The notes below the pieces were generated by a model that made no database searches, was not told where the DNA came from, and saw only the letters and a program-made list of their open reading frames with translations. The translations under genes and the position numbers were made by a program. Shown one piece after another: positions 5,408 through 11,737 of a stretch of 20,924 nt of DNA. The stretch is from a virus: positions 1-20,924 of IMG/VR virus record IMGVR_UViG_3300020442_000737; one strand, 5' to 3'. The first letter of the stretch is position 1; each line of letters begins with the position of its first letter.

Positions 5408-7540
5408 TTAGCAACTTGCGAGTTTAGTTGTTAAGAGTTCCTTCTGTATTCTATTTACACTAGCAGGTACAGGCATAGGTACAATCATCATCTCTTGACC
5501 TCCTGGTCCAGTCATCATCTGTGGTTGTTGAGATTGACCTCCGATAGGCATTACAACGACATTATCTCCTCCACCTTGTTCATAAGATTGATAATCAGAT
5601 ATTTGAGTAGATACCTGACTCATTACTTGTTGTGGTACAGGGCTTGGGGTTACTTGTGGAGTTACTTCTGGTGCAGATGGTGCAGGTGTTTTAACTTCCT
5701 CCACATAACCACCTTGAATTTCATTCATAATTCTTTCTACTTCTTCTCCTTTGCCCTGATCTCTCAACATTTTAGAATATCCTTCTACAGTTGCCTGACC
5801 AGACACCCAATCTAAAGCACCAGCAAATGCATCTCTACCGAGAGCCTCTTTCATTGCTTTAATTCTTTCCTGTTTTATCTGAATATCTTCCATCTCACCT
5901 GCGGTGAATCCAGTTTCTTCATCGATAACTGTATTACGATCTACACCTGCACGAGTTTTGGTTTCATCTCTCTTTAGTTGTGATTCAGTCCTTGCACCAT
6001 CATTTCCTGATGTAGGTGGAGCAGCAGTAGGCGCAGGTTCTGGGTCAGATGGTTTGTTGCCAGGAGGTGCTAACTTAGGTGTAGTTCCTGCACCTGGTCC
6101 AACATATTTGAAGTGAGCACTACCAGGTCCATGGTTATAAACATATTGCCATCCAAACTTGTGACCATTTTCTCTCATCCACTCATAGCCTTCACCATTC
6201 ATATCAAGTGCTTCGCCATACATATGGTGTGAATTTTCGTGACCCCCAATAGCAGTATTCTTTTCTTGACTTCTACCAGAACTTGCAACATAAGATCCAA
6301 GATTCATCCCAGATTCTTTTAATGCTCCAGCAAAAGCAGCAGCTGCAGGTTGAGAAAATACCAATGGTCTTCCATTTTGATCAATTTGACCAGCAATACC
6401 ATAACCAGAACCAGTCTCAGGGTGATCTGCCCCAACAACATTAGCAGCACCAGTAAATTGTTGTACACTAACACCCCCACCACCAGTGCGACCATCATCA
6501 CTTCCAGATGTGGTTGATCTGACGATTTTCTTGGCCTTTACCGAACTTTCAAATTTTTTAATAATTTCTTCAAACTTATCTAGCAATTCACTGAAAGTCT
6601 TTCTACCTCTTGGATTATCTAATTCTTTCTTCTGTTCTTCCTGTTTTTCTTTCTTCTCTTTGTTTTCTTCATTAAACTTTTCAAGATCCTCACCGACTTT
6701 ATCGGCACCAGTGAGTTTGTCCGCACCTGAAGCAGCTAACTTGGATCCAGCCATTGAACCCATAATACCAGAACCAAGAACCGCAATTCCATATAAAATT
6801 CTTGCACCTGGTACAGGAGTTACAAGTAGTGGAGAAAGAGCGGTAGCAGTTGCTTTACTTGCAAGAGCAAAACCTGCCATACCACCTGCAGCATCCGCAG
6901 CAGTACCTACTACAGCTTGGGTATTAGTCTGACCTTCTGCTTTTCTAAATCCAAATTCTAAACCAGCAGACGCAATATTTAATGCAGCATTCGCTTTACT
7001 GACACCTCTGAGACCTTTAGAGGCATCTGCAACACTATCAAGAACTCTAGTGCCTTGTCTTGCACCTCTAACTGCATCTTGTGTTGCATCAACTGCTTGA
7101 CCAGTCTGTTTTAATTTTTTTAAGTCTTTTGCTCTCTGAAGGGCAGTTCTACCATCTCTACCTACCTTACCACCTCTTCTGAATAAACCCCTAATATCAT
7201 TAGCAAAATCAGCAATACCAAGAAGATTACTTCCTAAACCAAGTAATCCCATACCTCCAGTCAATGCACCTCCAATAGCACCAAGGATTCCACCTCCACC
7301 ACCTTTGATGTTAAGATTTTTTAGTGATTTGAGTTTTTGACCTTTAGGTAGGTTAAAACGACGAATATTATTAGCTCCTCTATTGAGGAACTTGGACATA
7401 TCATCAAAGTCTCTTTTGACTCTGTTACGTTGGGTCTTTCCGTGTCTTAGATTGCCAACGATACCAGTCATCTGCCCGATAGGAGATGATACAGCGGAAA
7501 TCTTTGGTTTTTTATATGTGGGAACTACTGATACTGACAT
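5408..7540 (-). CDS. Tail/hub protein with M15 (VanY-like) peptidase domain
   Basis: 710-aa protein. The basic N-terminus (1-70) is followed by Gly-rich hydrophobic stretches (~78-115 and ~210-275), which could span a membrane or pack in the tail lumen. A highly charged Lys/Glu helix follows (~280-315). A D-Ala-D-Ala carboxypeptidase-like domain covers ~370-480, with the SxHxxGxAxD signature at Ser437-Asp446 (zinc ligands His439 and Asp446) and a closing AHFKYVG with third ligand His476. The usual acidic residue three before the last His is Gly here, so catalysis may differ or belong to another M15 subgroup. A Pro-rich linker and a Gln/Met-rich tail ending in Cys complete it. The start overlaps the previous stop (TAATG). 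Likely a tail-delivered wall peptidase; a second tape-measure-like role is possible. Confidence 0.65.
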   Translation of the reverse strand: MSVSVVPTYKKPKISAVSSPIGQMTGIVGNLRHGKTQRNRVKRDFDDMSKFLNRGANNIRRFNLPKGQKLKSLKNLNIKGGGGGILGAIGGALTGGMGLLGLGSNLLGIADFANDIRGLFRRGGKVGRDGRTALQRAKDLKKLKQTGQAVDATQDAVRGARQGTRVLDSVADASKGLRGVSKANAALNIASAGLEFGFRKAEGQTNTQAVVGTAADAAGGMAGFALASKATATALSPLLVTPVPGARILYGIAVLGSGIMGSMAGSKLAASGADKLTGADKVGEDLEKFNEENKEKKEKQEEQKKELDNPRGRKTFSELLDKFEEIIKKFESSVKAKKIVRSTTSGSDDGRTGGGGVSVQQFTGAANVVGADHPETGSGYGIAGQIDQNGRPLVFSQPAAAAFAGALKESGMNLGSYVASSGRSQEKNTAIGGHENSHHMYGEALDMNGEGYEWMRENGHKFGWQYVYNHGPGSAHFKYVGPGAGTTPKLAPPGNKPSDPEPAPTAAPPTSGNDGARTESQLKRDETKTRAGVDRNTVIDEETGFTAGEMEDIQIKQERIKAMKEALGRDAFAGALDWVSGQATVEGYSKMLRDQGKGEEVERIMNEIQGGYVEEVKTPAPSAPEVTPQVTPSPVPQQVMSQVSTQISDYQSYEQGGGDNVVVMPIGGQSQQPQMMTGPGGQEMMIVPMPVPASVNRIQKELLTTKLASC

Positions 7541-9327
7541 TATCCTACTACGTTATAAGTCATTCTTGAGAACATATCGTGAGCATTGTCCTTCATTGAA
7601 GAACTCATGAAAGGAACTCCACCTCCATCAGGTTTATTTGAAGAACCTCTAGCAACACCGCCAGATGGGGTTGGTTGACCGCCTCCGCCACCTACAGGAA
7701 CAACACTAACTCCACCACCTTTTCTAGCTGGTTGAGCAACCTGTTGACTAACTTTTTTCATCACTTGTGATTGTTCTGGTGCAGCTTCAACCTTTACTTT
7801 GTTAGGGTCAACTTCCGTACCAGTTACAAACTCGGGAACTGCCATCGTTCCCTTACCAGATACCTCTTCATTGAGGAATTGATTATCTCCAGCACCACCT
7901 CTCCAGATACTATTTGTTAGTGTCTGGTAATTCTTTGCACTCGCTCTGAATGATGTTCTGTCTTGAACAAATGTCTGTGCGTTCTTAATCAATTCTGGGT
8001 TACGCATTGCAGCAATAGTCGATCTGATTTGTTGTTCAGCGACTTCTGCAGTCTCACCTTTTTTCTTCATTCTAAATTTAACTGCATCTTCAAGAGTTTT
8101 GATGTTTTTTGCATCTGGATCAATATTATCATTCTGGTCAAACATCACTGCAAACTGACCCTTAGCAGTAGCAACTTCAGTCGCACTCTGACCTCTTTGA
8201 CCCATTCTATTATAAACAGCTTGAGCAACGTCTGCCCTTGCTTGATCAGTACCAGCTTCCATACTTGCAAGTGTTGCAGTAGTATAGAGATCTTGATCTT
8301 CTGAAGGCATAGCACCTCCACCACCACCCATAGATGAACTATCAGTACTACCACCACCACTTCCAGTAGCTGGTGTAGTTTGGGTCGGTGTTGTTTTGGC
8401 AGGTTTCGTTAAACTATCGATTGCATTATTAAATTGATCAAGAACCTGATTGAACTTTTCAAGTAGTTTCTGACTTAGAGGTTGTTCAACAACGGGTTCG
8501 GGTAGTTCTGGTGGAGCTGTAGGGGAACCCTGTACAGCAGGTGCTAGTGCCATTCCACCACCTAACAATCCTGCCCCTCCCAGGAGCATTCCAGCTGTAC
8601 CCATTCCACGTCTTCTTCTGGGTCTTGGTCTTGATGTTGGTGTTTGATTGGGTTTTCTTGGTGGACGTTTATTTCCTCCACCAAATCCAGGTATTCTAGG
8701 CAATCTAAAACCACCACCGCCACCACCGCCACTATTTTTGGCTGCGTCTTTTAGTTGTTTGATTATTTTTTTAAGAGTCTTAGCGACTGTTTCACCAACT
8801 ATAAACAATTCATTAAATCCAGTCCTTAGATTCTTAATTCCTTGTCTTAAGAATGCTAATCTCTTTCTATCACTTAGGAATCTGATGAAGTCCAGACCAC
8901 TGCGGAGCATGTCCAAGAATCCACCAAGCAGATTCGTTGGTTTATTACTCTCAGCGTCGTCAATACTTCTTCTATGTTCTGCCTTTAATCTATCTAATAC
9001 TGGACTGACAATATTAGTGACATTACTCTGAAGTTGAGTAATCGCATCCCCAAATTGATTATTGATATTGGTTGAAATGGATTTGATCAGAGATCCATTA
9101 CCTGGGTCTTTTGCTTTGACTCCAGCACCAAATTTTACAATCTTATTTGCAGGACTTTCTTCTTTACTTCTAACCTGACCTTCACGTCTTAGTGAACTGA
9201 AAAATCTATCTTGAAATCTATCTGTTGTTGGTTGTTTTTTATTACCACTAAAACCTCCTACACGAGGAGCTGCAAAAGAACCCATCGCACCATCAGTATT
9301 CCCTCCAGTTGCACCAATTTTAGCCAC
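7540..9327 (-). CDS. Tape measure candidate with SleB-like cell wall hydrolase domain
   Basis: 595-aa protein (T4 tape measure gp29 is 590 aa). It lies directly after the gp26/gp51-like chaperone genes, the usual place for a tape measure. Residues ~50-190 are helical, then come a poly-Gly stretch (~195-210), a basic Pro/Arg segment, a hydrophobic Gly/Leu segment (~245-265), and a Thr/Ser/Gly linker. Residues ~345-470 resemble SleB-type hydrolases: LASMEAG with candidate catalytic Glu357, ARADVAQAVYNRM, then KGQFAVMFDQ. The end is disordered and Gly-rich. The start codon is GTG, overlapping the upstream stop by 8 nt, with no clear Shine-Dalgarno, so coupled translation is likely. The hydrolase fold is moderately clear. 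The tape-measure role is inferred from size and place; the 710-aa neighbour is an alternative. Confidence 0.6.
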   Translation of the reverse strand: MAKIGATGGNTDGAMGSFAAPRVGGFSGNKKQPTTDRFQDRFFSSLRREGQVRSKEESPANKIVKFGAGVKAKDPGNGSLIKSISTNINNQFGDAITQLQSNVTNIVSPVLDRLKAEHRRSIDDAESNKPTNLLGGFLDMLRSGLDFIRFLSDRKRLAFLRQGIKNLRTGFNELFIVGETVAKTLKKIIKQLKDAAKNSGGGGGGGFRLPRIPGFGGGNKRPPRKPNQTPTSRPRPRRRRGMGTAGMLLGGAGLLGGGMALAPAVQGSPTAPPELPEPVVEQPLSQKLLEKFNQVLDQFNNAIDSLTKPAKTTPTQTTPATGSGGGSTDSSSMGGGGGAMPSEDQDLYTTATLASMEAGTDQARADVAQAVYNRMGQRGQSATEVATAKGQFAVMFDQNDNIDPDAKNIKTLEDAVKFRMKKKGETAEVAEQQIRSTIAAMRNPELIKNAQTFVQDRTSFRASAKNYQTLTNSIWRGGAGDNQFLNEEVSGKGTMAVPEFVTGTEVDPNKVKVEAAPEQSQVMKKVSQQVAQPARKGGGVSVVPVGGGGGQPTPSGGVARGSSNKPDGGGVPFMSSSMKDNAHDMFSRMTYNVVG

Positions 9328-9502
9328 GGCGTTCTCGTTGTTTTACTTTCTCGTTTTCTTCATCAATATGTTGTTTCAATAGAGCAAGATAAATGTCACG
9401 TTCCCAAGGGATGAGGTTTTCTACCTCTGTTAAGCTATATTTATGGAACTGCAGGAGAGCGAAGTTGATTCGATAGTATGACTCAAGTGAGATGTGAGCC
9501 AT
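9320..9502 (-). CDS. gp51-like hub/tape-measure assembly chaperone (second frame of gp26 pair)
   Basis: 60-aa protein containing LPWERDIYLALL-type sequence (here LIPWERDIYLALLKQHIDEE), a helical acidic pattern typical of the small second tape-measure chaperone downstream of gpG/gp26-type genes. T4 gp51 is larger, so the assignment rests on place and pattern. The ATG is 2 nt after the gp26 stop and lies exactly in the -1 frame relative to gp26. No stop occurs between the slippery site at 9517-9511 and this frame, so it may be made mainly as the C-terminal part of a 304-aa gp26 fusion and less as a free protein. Its stop overlaps the GTG of the tape-measure candidate by 8 nt. Confidence 0.6.
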   Translation of the reverse strand: MAHISLESYYRINFALLQFHKYSLTEVENLIPWERDIYLALLKQHIDEENEKVKQRERRG

Positions 9503-9519
9503 GATCAGGCGAAAAAACT
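9480..9519 (-). promoter_or_regulatory. Candidate -1 programmed ribosomal frameshift site (gp26/gp51-like)
   Basis: On the minus strand the last gp26 codons read AGT TTT TTC GCC TGA, giving the canonical X XXY YYZ heptamer T TTT TTC at 9517-9511, two codons before the stop. A -1 slip continues as CGC CTG ATC ATG GCT..., entering the 60-aa frame with no stop and giving a 304-residue fusion. Ten bases downstream a weak stem can form, GGCTCA (9500-9495) with TGAGTC (9485-9480), including one G-U pair. The arrangement matches the gpG/gpGT tail-chaperone frameshift of lambda. Frameshifting itself is inferred. Confidence 0.65.
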
Positions 9520-10233
9520 GGTCAACCCCTCCAACGTTACTTCACTCTCAACACCAGTCTTAGGATTTTTGACCTTAAAGGTGTGAGATAGTTTAGGCAT
9601 AGTGGTGAAGAAGTCTTCAATCATCTTGAATTGTGCAGACTGCATACCTTCAAGGAACTGAGTCAGTTCTTTCTTAGTGCAATCTGATGCTGCCCATGCC
9701 TCTTCCTCTGTGAAGATGGTATCAATACAAGAACTAATCACCTCGAAAGATCTTTCAATAGTTGAAACATCTTCATTACCTTCAAATTCAAAGTTCTCTT
9801 CAATGAATTGTTTGAGAGATGGATACTTCATTCTCAAAACAATCTTATCGTCCAACTTAATATCTTTACTATGCCCTTCTGGTTTTACAACTTGAATCTG
9901 ATCAACAAATAGTTTTACAGGTACAGTCGTTTCACCATCATCAGAACAAGTTACGATAAGATCGATTGCCTCACCAACAGACTTACCACGAACATTCAAG
10001 AACAAGTATTCAATATCAAAAGAAGGAAGATCTTCAATCTTTACTCCTCTGGTTTGAACGCAGTCTTTAAGAACTTGTTTGATAGCGTTCGTAATCTGTG
10101 TAGGGTCTTGACTTTCTAATGCGAGAATGAGAACTTTCTCTTCTTTAACTAGAAATGGACGATACTTAATTTTCTTCCCCGTAGAAGGAAGTTCCAACTC
10201 ATAAGTTGGAGTAGAAATCTTAGGTAATGGCAT
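9505..10233 (-). CDS. 26: Baseplate hub assembly chaperone gp26
   Basis: 242-aa protein (T4 gp26 is 208 aa). It matches the T4 base plate protein family: MPLPKISTPTYELELPSTG near the start, then YRPFLVKEEKVLILALES at ~25-42, a central FDIEYLFLNVRGKSVGE segment, and an acidic helical C-terminal half. The N-terminal fold is the same as in phage tail assembly chaperones of the gpG type. In T4, gp26 acts with gp51 and gp28 in hub/tape-measure assembly and is not a major virion part. The gene starts 31 nt after the upstream gene and has a late-promoter-like AATAAATA about 25 nt before its ATG, but no clear Shine-Dalgarno. Its 3' end carries the slippery heptamer described separately. Confidence 0.85.
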   Translation of the reverse strand: MPLPKISTPTYELELPSTGKKIKYRPFLVKEEKVLILALESQDPTQITNAIKQVLKDCVQTRGVKIEDLPSFDIEYLFLNVRGKSVGEAIDLIVTCSDDGETTVPVKLFVDQIQVVKPEGHSKDIKLDDKIVLRMKYPSLKQFIEENFEFEGNEDVSTIERSFEVISSCIDTIFTEEEAWAASDCTKKELTQFLEGMQSAQFKMIEDFFTTMPKLSHTFKVKNPKTGVESEVTLEGLTSFFA

Positions 10234-10258: not shown

Positions 10259-10266
10259 TATTTATT
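10259..10266 (-). promoter_or_regulatory. Candidate late promoter for gp26
   Basis: The minus strand reads AATAAATA at 10266-10259, matching the relaxed cyanophage late motif NATAAATA. It overlaps the stop codon of the upstream gene and ends 25 nt before the gp26 ATG, close to the 19-nt spacing seen for the consensus late promoter of gp4. This would start a hub/tape-measure transcript. Confidence 0.45.
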
Positions 10267-11266
10267 AAGCGATATTGGAGCCCGTTCCAAACAAATCATT
10301 TGCACCAACACCTAGATTGACATCCAATCCGTTGAATGCATTATAGAAGTTATTATTCAATAAAGTGTCTCCAGAATACAATGATGGAGCACCAGATACA
10401 AGAACTTGTTGATTTGTTGCAGGGTCCAATGCAGATTGTTGATTGCTAGCATTGAATGGATTCTGAGAATTACCAGTACCAGCATGATCTAAAGTGATGT
10501 ATCTTGTATATCCAAGAGTAACACTAACTCTCATAATATCGGAGTTTTCATATCCAAGTCTGATATTATCAACTGAAATTGGATATGCATCAATAAGTCT
10601 ATAGGTGATCATGTTAGGTGTTGCAGTTACATAACCACCATCGACATGAACATCTCTCTCAAATTTAGTAATGCTGATTTCTCTCTTATATCTGTCTGGA
10701 TATCTAAACTGCAAGAAGTCATTTCTCATGATTCTGTTGACTTGTCCACTATTACTTCCAGTAGTATCTCTACCACCGAGACTTAGTGCAGCGATGAAGT
10801 TTGCCCACTCTTGCCATAGTCTTAGAATACCATAATCTGCACCAACATAGAATGATAAATTTACAGGTGTAAACGTTCTGGTATTAACGAATTGTTCTTG
10901 CAATCCTTGTCTATCACCCATAGTAGTAGCACGACCAAGTTCATATCCAGGTAGTGCTGCACCATCACACATAAACTCATAACGTAAAGACTTTAGGTTC
11001 TCGTTAGGAACGTTTGCATTGAAGTTTCCAAGAACACCACAACTAGTCAACCAGTCAGTGACATTTTGATCTGCTTGATTTCCTCCAGAATCGCCCAAGT
11101 GTAAACTAATTTTGTATTGGGATGTCATGGCGAGTTCGCCAAACATATCCATTACACTAGGCAAAGAGGCACGACCATCCTTCGTAGCCCGAGGAGTGGT
11201 CATTTTTGTGTAGATTGGATCTACTCTGAATAAATTTTGGTCTCCTGCAGTTCCTGAAGATGCCAC
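10265..11266 (-). CDS. Tail-tube-fold virion protein, gp54-like tube initiator candidate
   Basis: 333 aa from the GTG at 11266 (T4 gp54 is 320 aa). Conserved-looking pieces are SLPSVMDMFGELAMTSQ, CDGAALPG with TFTPVNLSFYV, a LWQEWANFI helix, and near the C-terminus RYKREISITKFERD, ITYRLIDAYPISVDNIRL and MRVSVTLGYTRYITL. This succession is typical of gp19-fold proteins (tail tube, gp48, gp54). T4 gp54 and gp48 together start the tail tube, and gp48 is encoded nearby on the other strand. The reading frame stays open further up to 11653, but that part runs antisense through gp4 and looks non-coding. GTG 11266 abuts the divergent late promoter. ATG 11203 is the alternative start; neither has a good ribosome binding site, and I see no promoter. 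Confidence 0.6.
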   Translation of the reverse strand: MASSGTAGDQNLFRVDPIYTKMTTPRATKDGRASLPSVMDMFGELAMTSQYKISLHLGDSGGNQADQNVTDWLTSCGVLGNFNANVPNENLKSLRYEFMCDGAALPGYELGRATTMGDRQGLQEQFVNTRTFTPVNLSFYVGADYGILRLWQEWANFIAALSLGGRDTTGSNSGQVNRIMRNDFLQFRYPDRYKREISITKFERDVHVDGGYVTATPNMITYRLIDAYPISVDNIRLGYENSDIMRVSVTLGYTRYITLDHAGTGNSQNPFNASNQQSALDPATNQQVLVSGAPSLYSGDTLLNNNFYNAFNGLDVNLGVGANDLFGTGSNIA

Positions 11267-11274
11267 TATAAATA
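11267..11274 (+). promoter_or_regulatory. T4-type late promoter for the gp4-gp53 operon
   Basis: A perfect TATAAATA, preceded by C and followed by a T-rich run, lies 19 nt before the gp4 ATG, with GAGG (11281-11284) in between as the ribosome binding site. The element and spacing are typical of late promoters read by host RNA polymerase with a gp55-type sigma factor and gp33. Confidence 0.75.
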
Positions 11275-11293
11275 TTTTTTGAGGATCTATACT

Positions 11294-11737
11294 ATGTATA
11301 TGAGTTATAAGGGTAGATATAAACCAGAGAATCCCAAAAAGTACAAGGGCGACTCGGGTAACATCGTTTATCGTTCTCTTTGGGAACGAAAATTCATGAG
11401 ATATTGTGATTTGAATGAGAATGTGAACCAGTGGCAATCTGAAGAGTTTTTCATTCCTTATCGTTCCCCTATTGATGGAAAGATGCACAGGTATTTTCCT
11501 GACTTCTTTGTGAAATATAATGATGCAAATGGCAGACAACGATGTGTTGTCATTGAAGTCAAACCTGCAAAAGAAGTAAAGATGCCTGAAAAGAATCCTA
11601 AGAGAAGGACAAAAGCATGGGCATATAGTGTCCAGACTTGGGTAGTGAACCAAGCGAAGTGGGATGCAGCAAAAGAGTATTGTGCAGATCGTAACTATGA
11701 ATTCCGAATCATGACCGAGAAGGAGTTAGGGGTATGA
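11294..11737 (+). CDS. 4: Head completion protein gp4, nuclease-like fold
   Basis: 147 aa from ATG 11294 (T4 gp4 is 150 aa). The pattern is that of gp4/gp50: KGRYKPENPKKYKGD, NIVYRSLWERKFMRYCD, QWQSEEFFIPY, DGKMHRYFPDFFV, VVIEVKPAKE. Asp70 and Glu88-x-Lys90, with Glu31 upstream, form a PD-(D/E)XK-like set shared with TnsA-type endonucleases. In T4, gp4 acts on the filled head before tail joining. GAGG at 11281-11284 is 9 nt before ATG 11294; a second ATG at 11300 gives MSYKGRY, which looks more like family N-termini but is 15 nt from GAGG. A TTG further up at 11279 is unlikely. The stop overlaps the next start (ATGA). Confidence 0.85.
   Translation: MYMSYKGRYKPENPKKYKGDSGNIVYRSLWERKFMRYCDLNENVNQWQSEEFFIPYRSPIDGKMHRYFPDFFVKYNDANGRQRCVVIEVKPAKEVKMPEKNPKRRTKAWAYSVQTWVVNQAKWDAAKEYCADRNYEFRIMTEKELGV

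Follow-up and report, generated by a model that had tools for sequence, protein, structure and literature searches.

A probable -1 frameshift site in the tail assembly chaperone gene of a T4-like cyanophage

Overview

The stretch of viral DNA analysed here (the window, 20,924 nt) comes from an IMG/VR record that is a 20.9-kb fragment. On comparative grounds it is very probable that its gp26-like gene and the 60-aa frame that follows are one frameshifted tail assembly chaperone (TAC) gene with two products, TAC-N of 242 aa and TAC-NC of 304 aa. We place it with the lambda gpG/gpGT type of TAC gene, in a T4-like cyanophage, because of its conserved slippery site, its open -1 frame, the putative stimulators around the site, the fold match, and its colinearity and copy number relative to T4. 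An earlier note made from the letters of this DNA had proposed the -1 frameshift and the lambda analogy, and both are strongly supported by comparative sequence and predicted fold.

In the proposed mechanism most ribosomes would terminate at the gp26 stop and release TAC-N. In a minority, both Phe tRNAs would re-pair one base back, on TTT TTT, at the heptamer T TTT TTC, and translation would continue in the -1 frame to give TAC-NC. The slip would be aided by an upstream GGAGG, through pairing with the 16S rRNA 3' end, and presumably also by a hairpin that starts 4-8 nt downstream. By analogy with gpG, TAC-N would coat the tape measure protein; the minor TAC-NC, like gpGT, would bring in tail tube subunits.

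The gene and its junction in the window

The features of the locus, in the order in which they are transcribed, are as follows.

10265..11653, minus strand: tail-tube-like protein, upstream of gp26
9505..10233, minus strand: gp26-like gene, the short tail assembly chaperone (TAC-N), 242 aa, stop TGA 9507-9505 included
9526..9532, minus strand: putative SD-like 5' stimulator GGAGGGG, whose core GGAGG (9532-9528) ends 10 nt before the heptamer
9511..9517, minus strand: slippery heptamer T TTT TTC in X XXY YYZ phase, its first base ten nt before the gp26 stop
9320..9511, minus strand: -1 frame encoding the gp51-like C-terminal domain (TAC-C), 63 codons read after the slip (RLIMAHIS...RERRG)
9471..9507, minus strand: downstream hairpin, core ATGGCTCA (9502-9495) with TGAGTCAT (9485-9478) around a 9-nt loop, outer TGAT (9507-9504) with ATCG (9474-9471)
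7540..9327, minus strand: 595-aa ORF that starts with GTG shortly before TAC-C ends, probably in the tape-measure position to judge by position and size

The gp26-like protein matches PF12322 (T4_baseplate) over profile positions 2-219 of 219 (E 4e-75, 252.7 bits against a cut-off of 24.5) and phrog_150 (E 2e-80). On the minus strand the 3' end of its gene reads GGG TTG ACC AGT TTT TTC GCC TGA, so that the ending AGT TTT TTC GCC TGA with an in-phase T TTT TTC, as originally described, is indeed present at 9517-9511. After a -1 slip the reading would be TTT TTT CGC CTG ATC ATG..., in a frame that in the window opens 34 nt ahead of the gp26 stop and stays open for 185 nt beyond it. The slip had been predicted to enter the downstream 60-aa frame and give a 304-aa fusion, and the fusion that we computed has this length; its junction is TSFF-RLIMAHISLESYYRINFALLQFHKYSLTEVENLIPWERDIYLALLKQHIDEENEKVKQRERRG and its end falls inside the start of the 595-aa ORF. 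The TAC-C portion matches phrog_634 (E 3e-27) and the end of phrog_150 (E 1e-6). In background counts, which cover the 20.9-kb fragment, any X XXY YYZ heptamer was found in phase at 26 of 6,713 positions and T6N at 2. Only the gp26 T6N site, among all in-phase heptamers of the window, sends the -1 frame beyond the end of its gene.

Conservation of the slippery site

IMG/VR scans together with named phages provided 274 loci with a readable gp26 end. T TTT TTN is in phase at 255 of these, its first base preceding the stop by 7-13 nt. The remaining 19 belong to Ackermannviridae or close relatives and were left out of the conservation counts. Outside the Ackermannviridae the heptamer is therefore present in 255/255 loci, and in 182/182 representatives after clustering at 90% identity, against an in-phase T6N background of 12/42,242 in the same genes, although many of the relatives are closely related and these counts are not counts of independent events. 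No close relative among the 255 had a broken heptamer or a phase that a -1 slip could not join. All 245 untruncated relatives have a -1 frame without interruption from the heptamer onward, extending 164-203 nt past the stop. We rejected a +1 (or -2) shift, since in 13/13 named phages the +1 frame meets a stop codon within some 80 nt of the gp26 stop.

Judged from the aligned codons, it is the slippery site that is conserved rather than the protein residues. The earlier note had asked whether the heptamer and -1 phase are kept while flanking codons drift, and this is what we observed: every representative keeps T TTT TTN, whereas residues and stops vary. The gp26 gene ends in TAG, TAA or TGA, at a distance of 0, 3 or 6 nt past the heptamer. 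The second heptamer codon is TTC in 153 representatives, TTT in 15, TTA in 13 and TTG in 1, so that Phe is replaced by Leu in 14 with the heptamer intact. One could suppose that the heptamer is just a by-product of conserved Ser-Phe-Phe residues and AT-rich codon use, since Ser-Phe-Phe is common at the site and the genes are AT-rich. We find this hardly credible. The codon preceding the two heptamer codons (AGT, TCT, AAT, GCT, GAT or GGT) encodes any of five residues, Ser, Asn, Ala, Asp or Gly, yet its third base is T in 182/182; the first heptamer Phe codon is TTT in 182/182 where 0.69 is expected; and the Leu substitutions just mentioned spare the heptamer. Moreover, T4 and its near relatives, which need no shift, have TTC TTT at these Phe codons and so a broken run, the more distant T4 relative L282 having TTT TTT.

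At the second heptamer position TTC accounts for 153 of the 168 Phe codons (0.31 expected), which holds the T run at six. The preference may tune the efficiency of the slip or avoid slippage by the polymerase. The window's counterpart of this TTC is at 9513-9511.

The 19 Ackermannviridae-type loci (L089, L091, L092, L093, L183-L197) have an open -1 frame and a similar C-terminal domain, and we found no canonical heptamer at the gp26 end of any of them. Motifs seen there are CGTTTTTC, GCTTTTTG, CCTTTTTC and GATTTTC, resembling the GTTTTT motif reported in Vandenendeviridae, and these loci may use a single-tRNA slip. The TAC frameshift of Vandenendeviridae/Andersonviridae (phage Adele, PMC12846349) likewise has a conserved poly-T at the end of TAC-N and an uninterrupted -1 frame; its GTTTTT is closer to the Ackermannviridae loci than to the canonical T6N heptamer.

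Elements flanking the slippery site

Codon choice upstream of the heptamer is strongly biased. Among the 182 representatives, Glu at position -14 from the heptamer is encoded by GAG in 121 of 171 cases (0.28 expected), and Gly at -11 by GGG in 46 of 181 (0.06 expected). GAA-GGT, elsewhere in these genes the commonest Glu-Gly codon pair (25/60), occurs only once at this place. For pairing predictions we used CACCUCCUUU, which we take to be the cyanobacterial 16S rRNA 3' tail. The predicted anti-SD duplex averages -7.4 kcal/mol, compared with -5.7 for synonymous shuffles, and reaches -9.8 in the window; further upstream, anti-SD pairing showed no comparable excess over synonymous shuffles. GGAGG is thus likely a frameshift stimulator under selection, and in dnaX -1 frameshifting a 5' SD stimulator counts among the main features (PMC5009743). 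The conserved SD-like element is a tangible starting point for asking what sets the ratio of the two forms.

Downstream of the site, structure in excess of dinucleotide shuffles peaks directly after the heptamer. The window's hairpin has its core beginning 8 nt after the heptamer. A weak stem had been suggested here; the stem itself is upheld by covariation among relatives, but at -9.3 kcal/mol it is stronger than "weak" implies. In one part of the window's clade the hairpin has 8-12 bp, with 82% of cells paired against 24-44% when it is slid, and 14 cells are changed on both sides, which was matched in 0 of 500 shuffles, a count that is not a probability because the sequences are related. The other part of the clade has a short GGTCC-ATAT-GGACC hairpin, with both-side changes in 5/5 pairs. 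RNAalifold found no common stem in the syn9-like and Melnitz-like loci. The hairpin is accordingly restricted to the window's clade, where it takes two alternative forms, and is not common to all groups; within that clade these hairpins are likely stimulators under selection. A third form, CCCTCT...AGAGGG around CTCATATGAG, follows the heptamer in L156 and L167, neighbours of the short-hairpin sub-clade.

These flanking elements bear on two further explanations. RNA polymerase slippage on the T run could add a base to some transcripts, and from an extra base the same -1 product would arise with no ribosomal event. The site is a T run, as this explanation needs; however, the run is held at six T, with TTC preferred as described above, bacterial slippage has been described on runs of 9 A or T (PMC5009743), and polymerase slippage gives no reason to expect stimulators of the ribosomal kind, fixed in their spacing, on both sides. 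We consider it most unlikely.

The other explanation is that of two ordinary overlapping genes, in which the gp51-like ORF would start by re-initiation at its own ATG (9502-9500), with no frameshift. In the window this ATG follows the stop by two nt, 99/115 members of the clade have one at exactly the same place, and public annotations do give gp51 as a separate gene. Outside the clade the picture is different, as an ATG is found near the junction in just 5/25 syn9-like and 1/27 Melnitz-like relatives, and where it is missing the annotated "gp51" starts deep in the conserved domain. The SD-like element, about 25 nt upstream of the ATG, is too far away for initiation, and the ATG itself forms part of the hairpin. 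Nor do two separate genes account for a T TTT TTN that is kept while residues change, or for a -1 frame that is always open from the heptamer. We therefore hold this arrangement to be very improbable and prefer a single frameshifted gene. Since an ATG is nearly always near the junction in the window's own clade, some additional free TAC-C may be made there.

Predicted fold and gene order

An AlphaFold2 model of gp26 (pLDDT 86.9) gave as its best VIA-align matches 3FGX (Z 8.0), 2OB9, the HK97 tail assembly chaperone (Z 7.8), and 3KLU, which is YqbN (Z 7.2), the next match having a Z of 4.9. These three are the solved structures that PMC9603447 names as TACs. Foldseek searches of the PDB with the model returned nothing significant (E above 1) and phmmer found no match among PDB sequences. 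Because Foldseek was not significant and a Z near 8 can be reached by chance, our argument from fold rests on which chains rank first. By that measure the gp26 model has a TAC-N fold at moderate Z, the matches spanning only about residues 1-95.

The protein encoded upstream of gp26 is tail-tube-like (PF23849 Phage_TTP_2, E 4e-17; phrog_45 tail tube, E 1e-23). Downstream, the site had been placed directly before a tape-measure-sized gene, and the 595-aa ORF, a candidate tape measure gene, does overlap the last part of the -1 frame; PF and phrog profile searches gave it no family match above cut-off. Most relatives have a large ORF within about 10 nt downstream. The order in lambda is V-G-T-H, and with a tail-tube-like upstream neighbour the order tube - TAC - large ORF therefore matches it.

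We also noted a SleB/Hydrolase_2-like match, weak and below cut-off, in the 595-aa ORF. It is followed, with a stop/start overlap, by a 710-aa ORF that has a peptidase M15 match (the two ORFs occupying window 5408-9327, minus strand), and syn9 and others have one much longer gene in place of the two. Tape-measure and lytic functions may be split between these ORFs.

The arrangement in T4

T4 genes 26 (minus strand) and 51 (plus strand) lie on opposite strands and are divergent. Each product matches PF12322, and each is a full member of the family. In our alignment T4 gp51 runs through the junction as a single ORF, colinear with the cyanophage fusion, while T4 gp26 stops where the cyanophage slip would occur; neither gene has an unbroken T run. 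It had been suggested that a shift here would show the T4-like hub chaperones to follow the lambda rule; this fails for the T4 pair itself, where the strands are opposite and the slippery site is gone from both genes. Two copies of PF12322 were found in T4 and PhiKpNIH-6, as against one in each of 13 other phages searched. Similarly, phrog_634 lies inside one ORF in T4 and PhiKpNIH-6 but starts at the junction in the frameshifters, and Aeh1 and AS-zj, which are Straboviridae, retain the frameshift arrangement. On these three observations we regard recoding and gene duplication as alternatives. We infer that recoding came first, since the cyanophages have it in common with phages of Methylophilales, Sinorhizobium, Vibrio, Stenotrophomonas and Aeromonas. 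Recoding and duplication would be two routes to the same two chaperones, both within Straboviridae (Aeh1 versus T4). In the abstract of Vladimirov et al., several T4-like groups are reported to have kept the frameshift, with genes 26 and 51 serving in T4.

Relation to known frameshift systems

The lambda slippery heptamer is G GGA AAG. As in lambda gpG/gpGT and the wider TAC frameshift family (Xu, Hendrix, Duda 2004; Levin 1993), the cyanophage slip would be a -1 shift at the very end of a short chaperone gene, giving a long form with an added C-terminal domain, between the tail tube gene and a large downstream ORF. Unlike lambda, the cyanophage is T4-like and contractile-tailed, its heptamer is T TTT TTC, and SD-like and hairpin elements are evident.

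The layout is that of E. coli dnaX, with an SD-like element about 10 nt upstream, a homopolymeric X XXY YYZ heptamer and a hairpin shortly downstream. In dnaX, however, the gene is a different one, the heptamer is A AAA AAG, and the shift gives a shorter product. Our data point to selection on both flanking elements, the hairpin in the window's clade only. We think it fairly likely that the T4-like TAC frameshift is a dnaX-type cassette, in which a conserved anti-SD stimulator with a constant spacing of 10 nt is combined with downstream hairpins re-invented in different forms in neighbouring sub-clades, and that on the T4 branch the whole cassette was dismantled as duplication of the gene gave rise to 26 and 51. 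If so, the TAC-N:TAC-NC ratio, and its preservation when two genes replace recoding, become directly testable.

In 2016 the frameshift was described as widely conserved in long-tailed phages "except T4" (PMC5009743). The title of Vladimirov, Gautam and Davidson 2022 (Virology 566:9-15; doi 10.1016/j.virol.2021.11.003) announces the identification of T4-like TAC genes and a mechanism other than frameshifting; the paper is cited in PMC12846349 in connection with poly-T slippery signals of T4-like TAC-N genes, and also in PMC10885494. From its title and these citations, gp26/gp51 are likewise TAC-N/TAC-NC in that study, with frameshifting in some groups and separate genes in T4. The frameshift principle in T4-like phages, including the difference from T4, thus appears to be already published. 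Neither the SD-like element nor the alternation of hairpin forms was found described in the literature searched, in which Vladimirov et al. was represented by its title and citations.

Public cyanophage records split the two halves into separate genes, with gp51 sometimes begun at an internal Met, and the true 300-aa product is consequently missing from them. The gp51-like gene is annotated from an internal Met in syn9 and ACG-2014a and omitted in AS-zj and Aeh1, though the -1 frame is complete from the heptamer; the loci concerned are L082:3271-3414, L083:3301-3396, L088:3205-3370 and L094:3217-3384.
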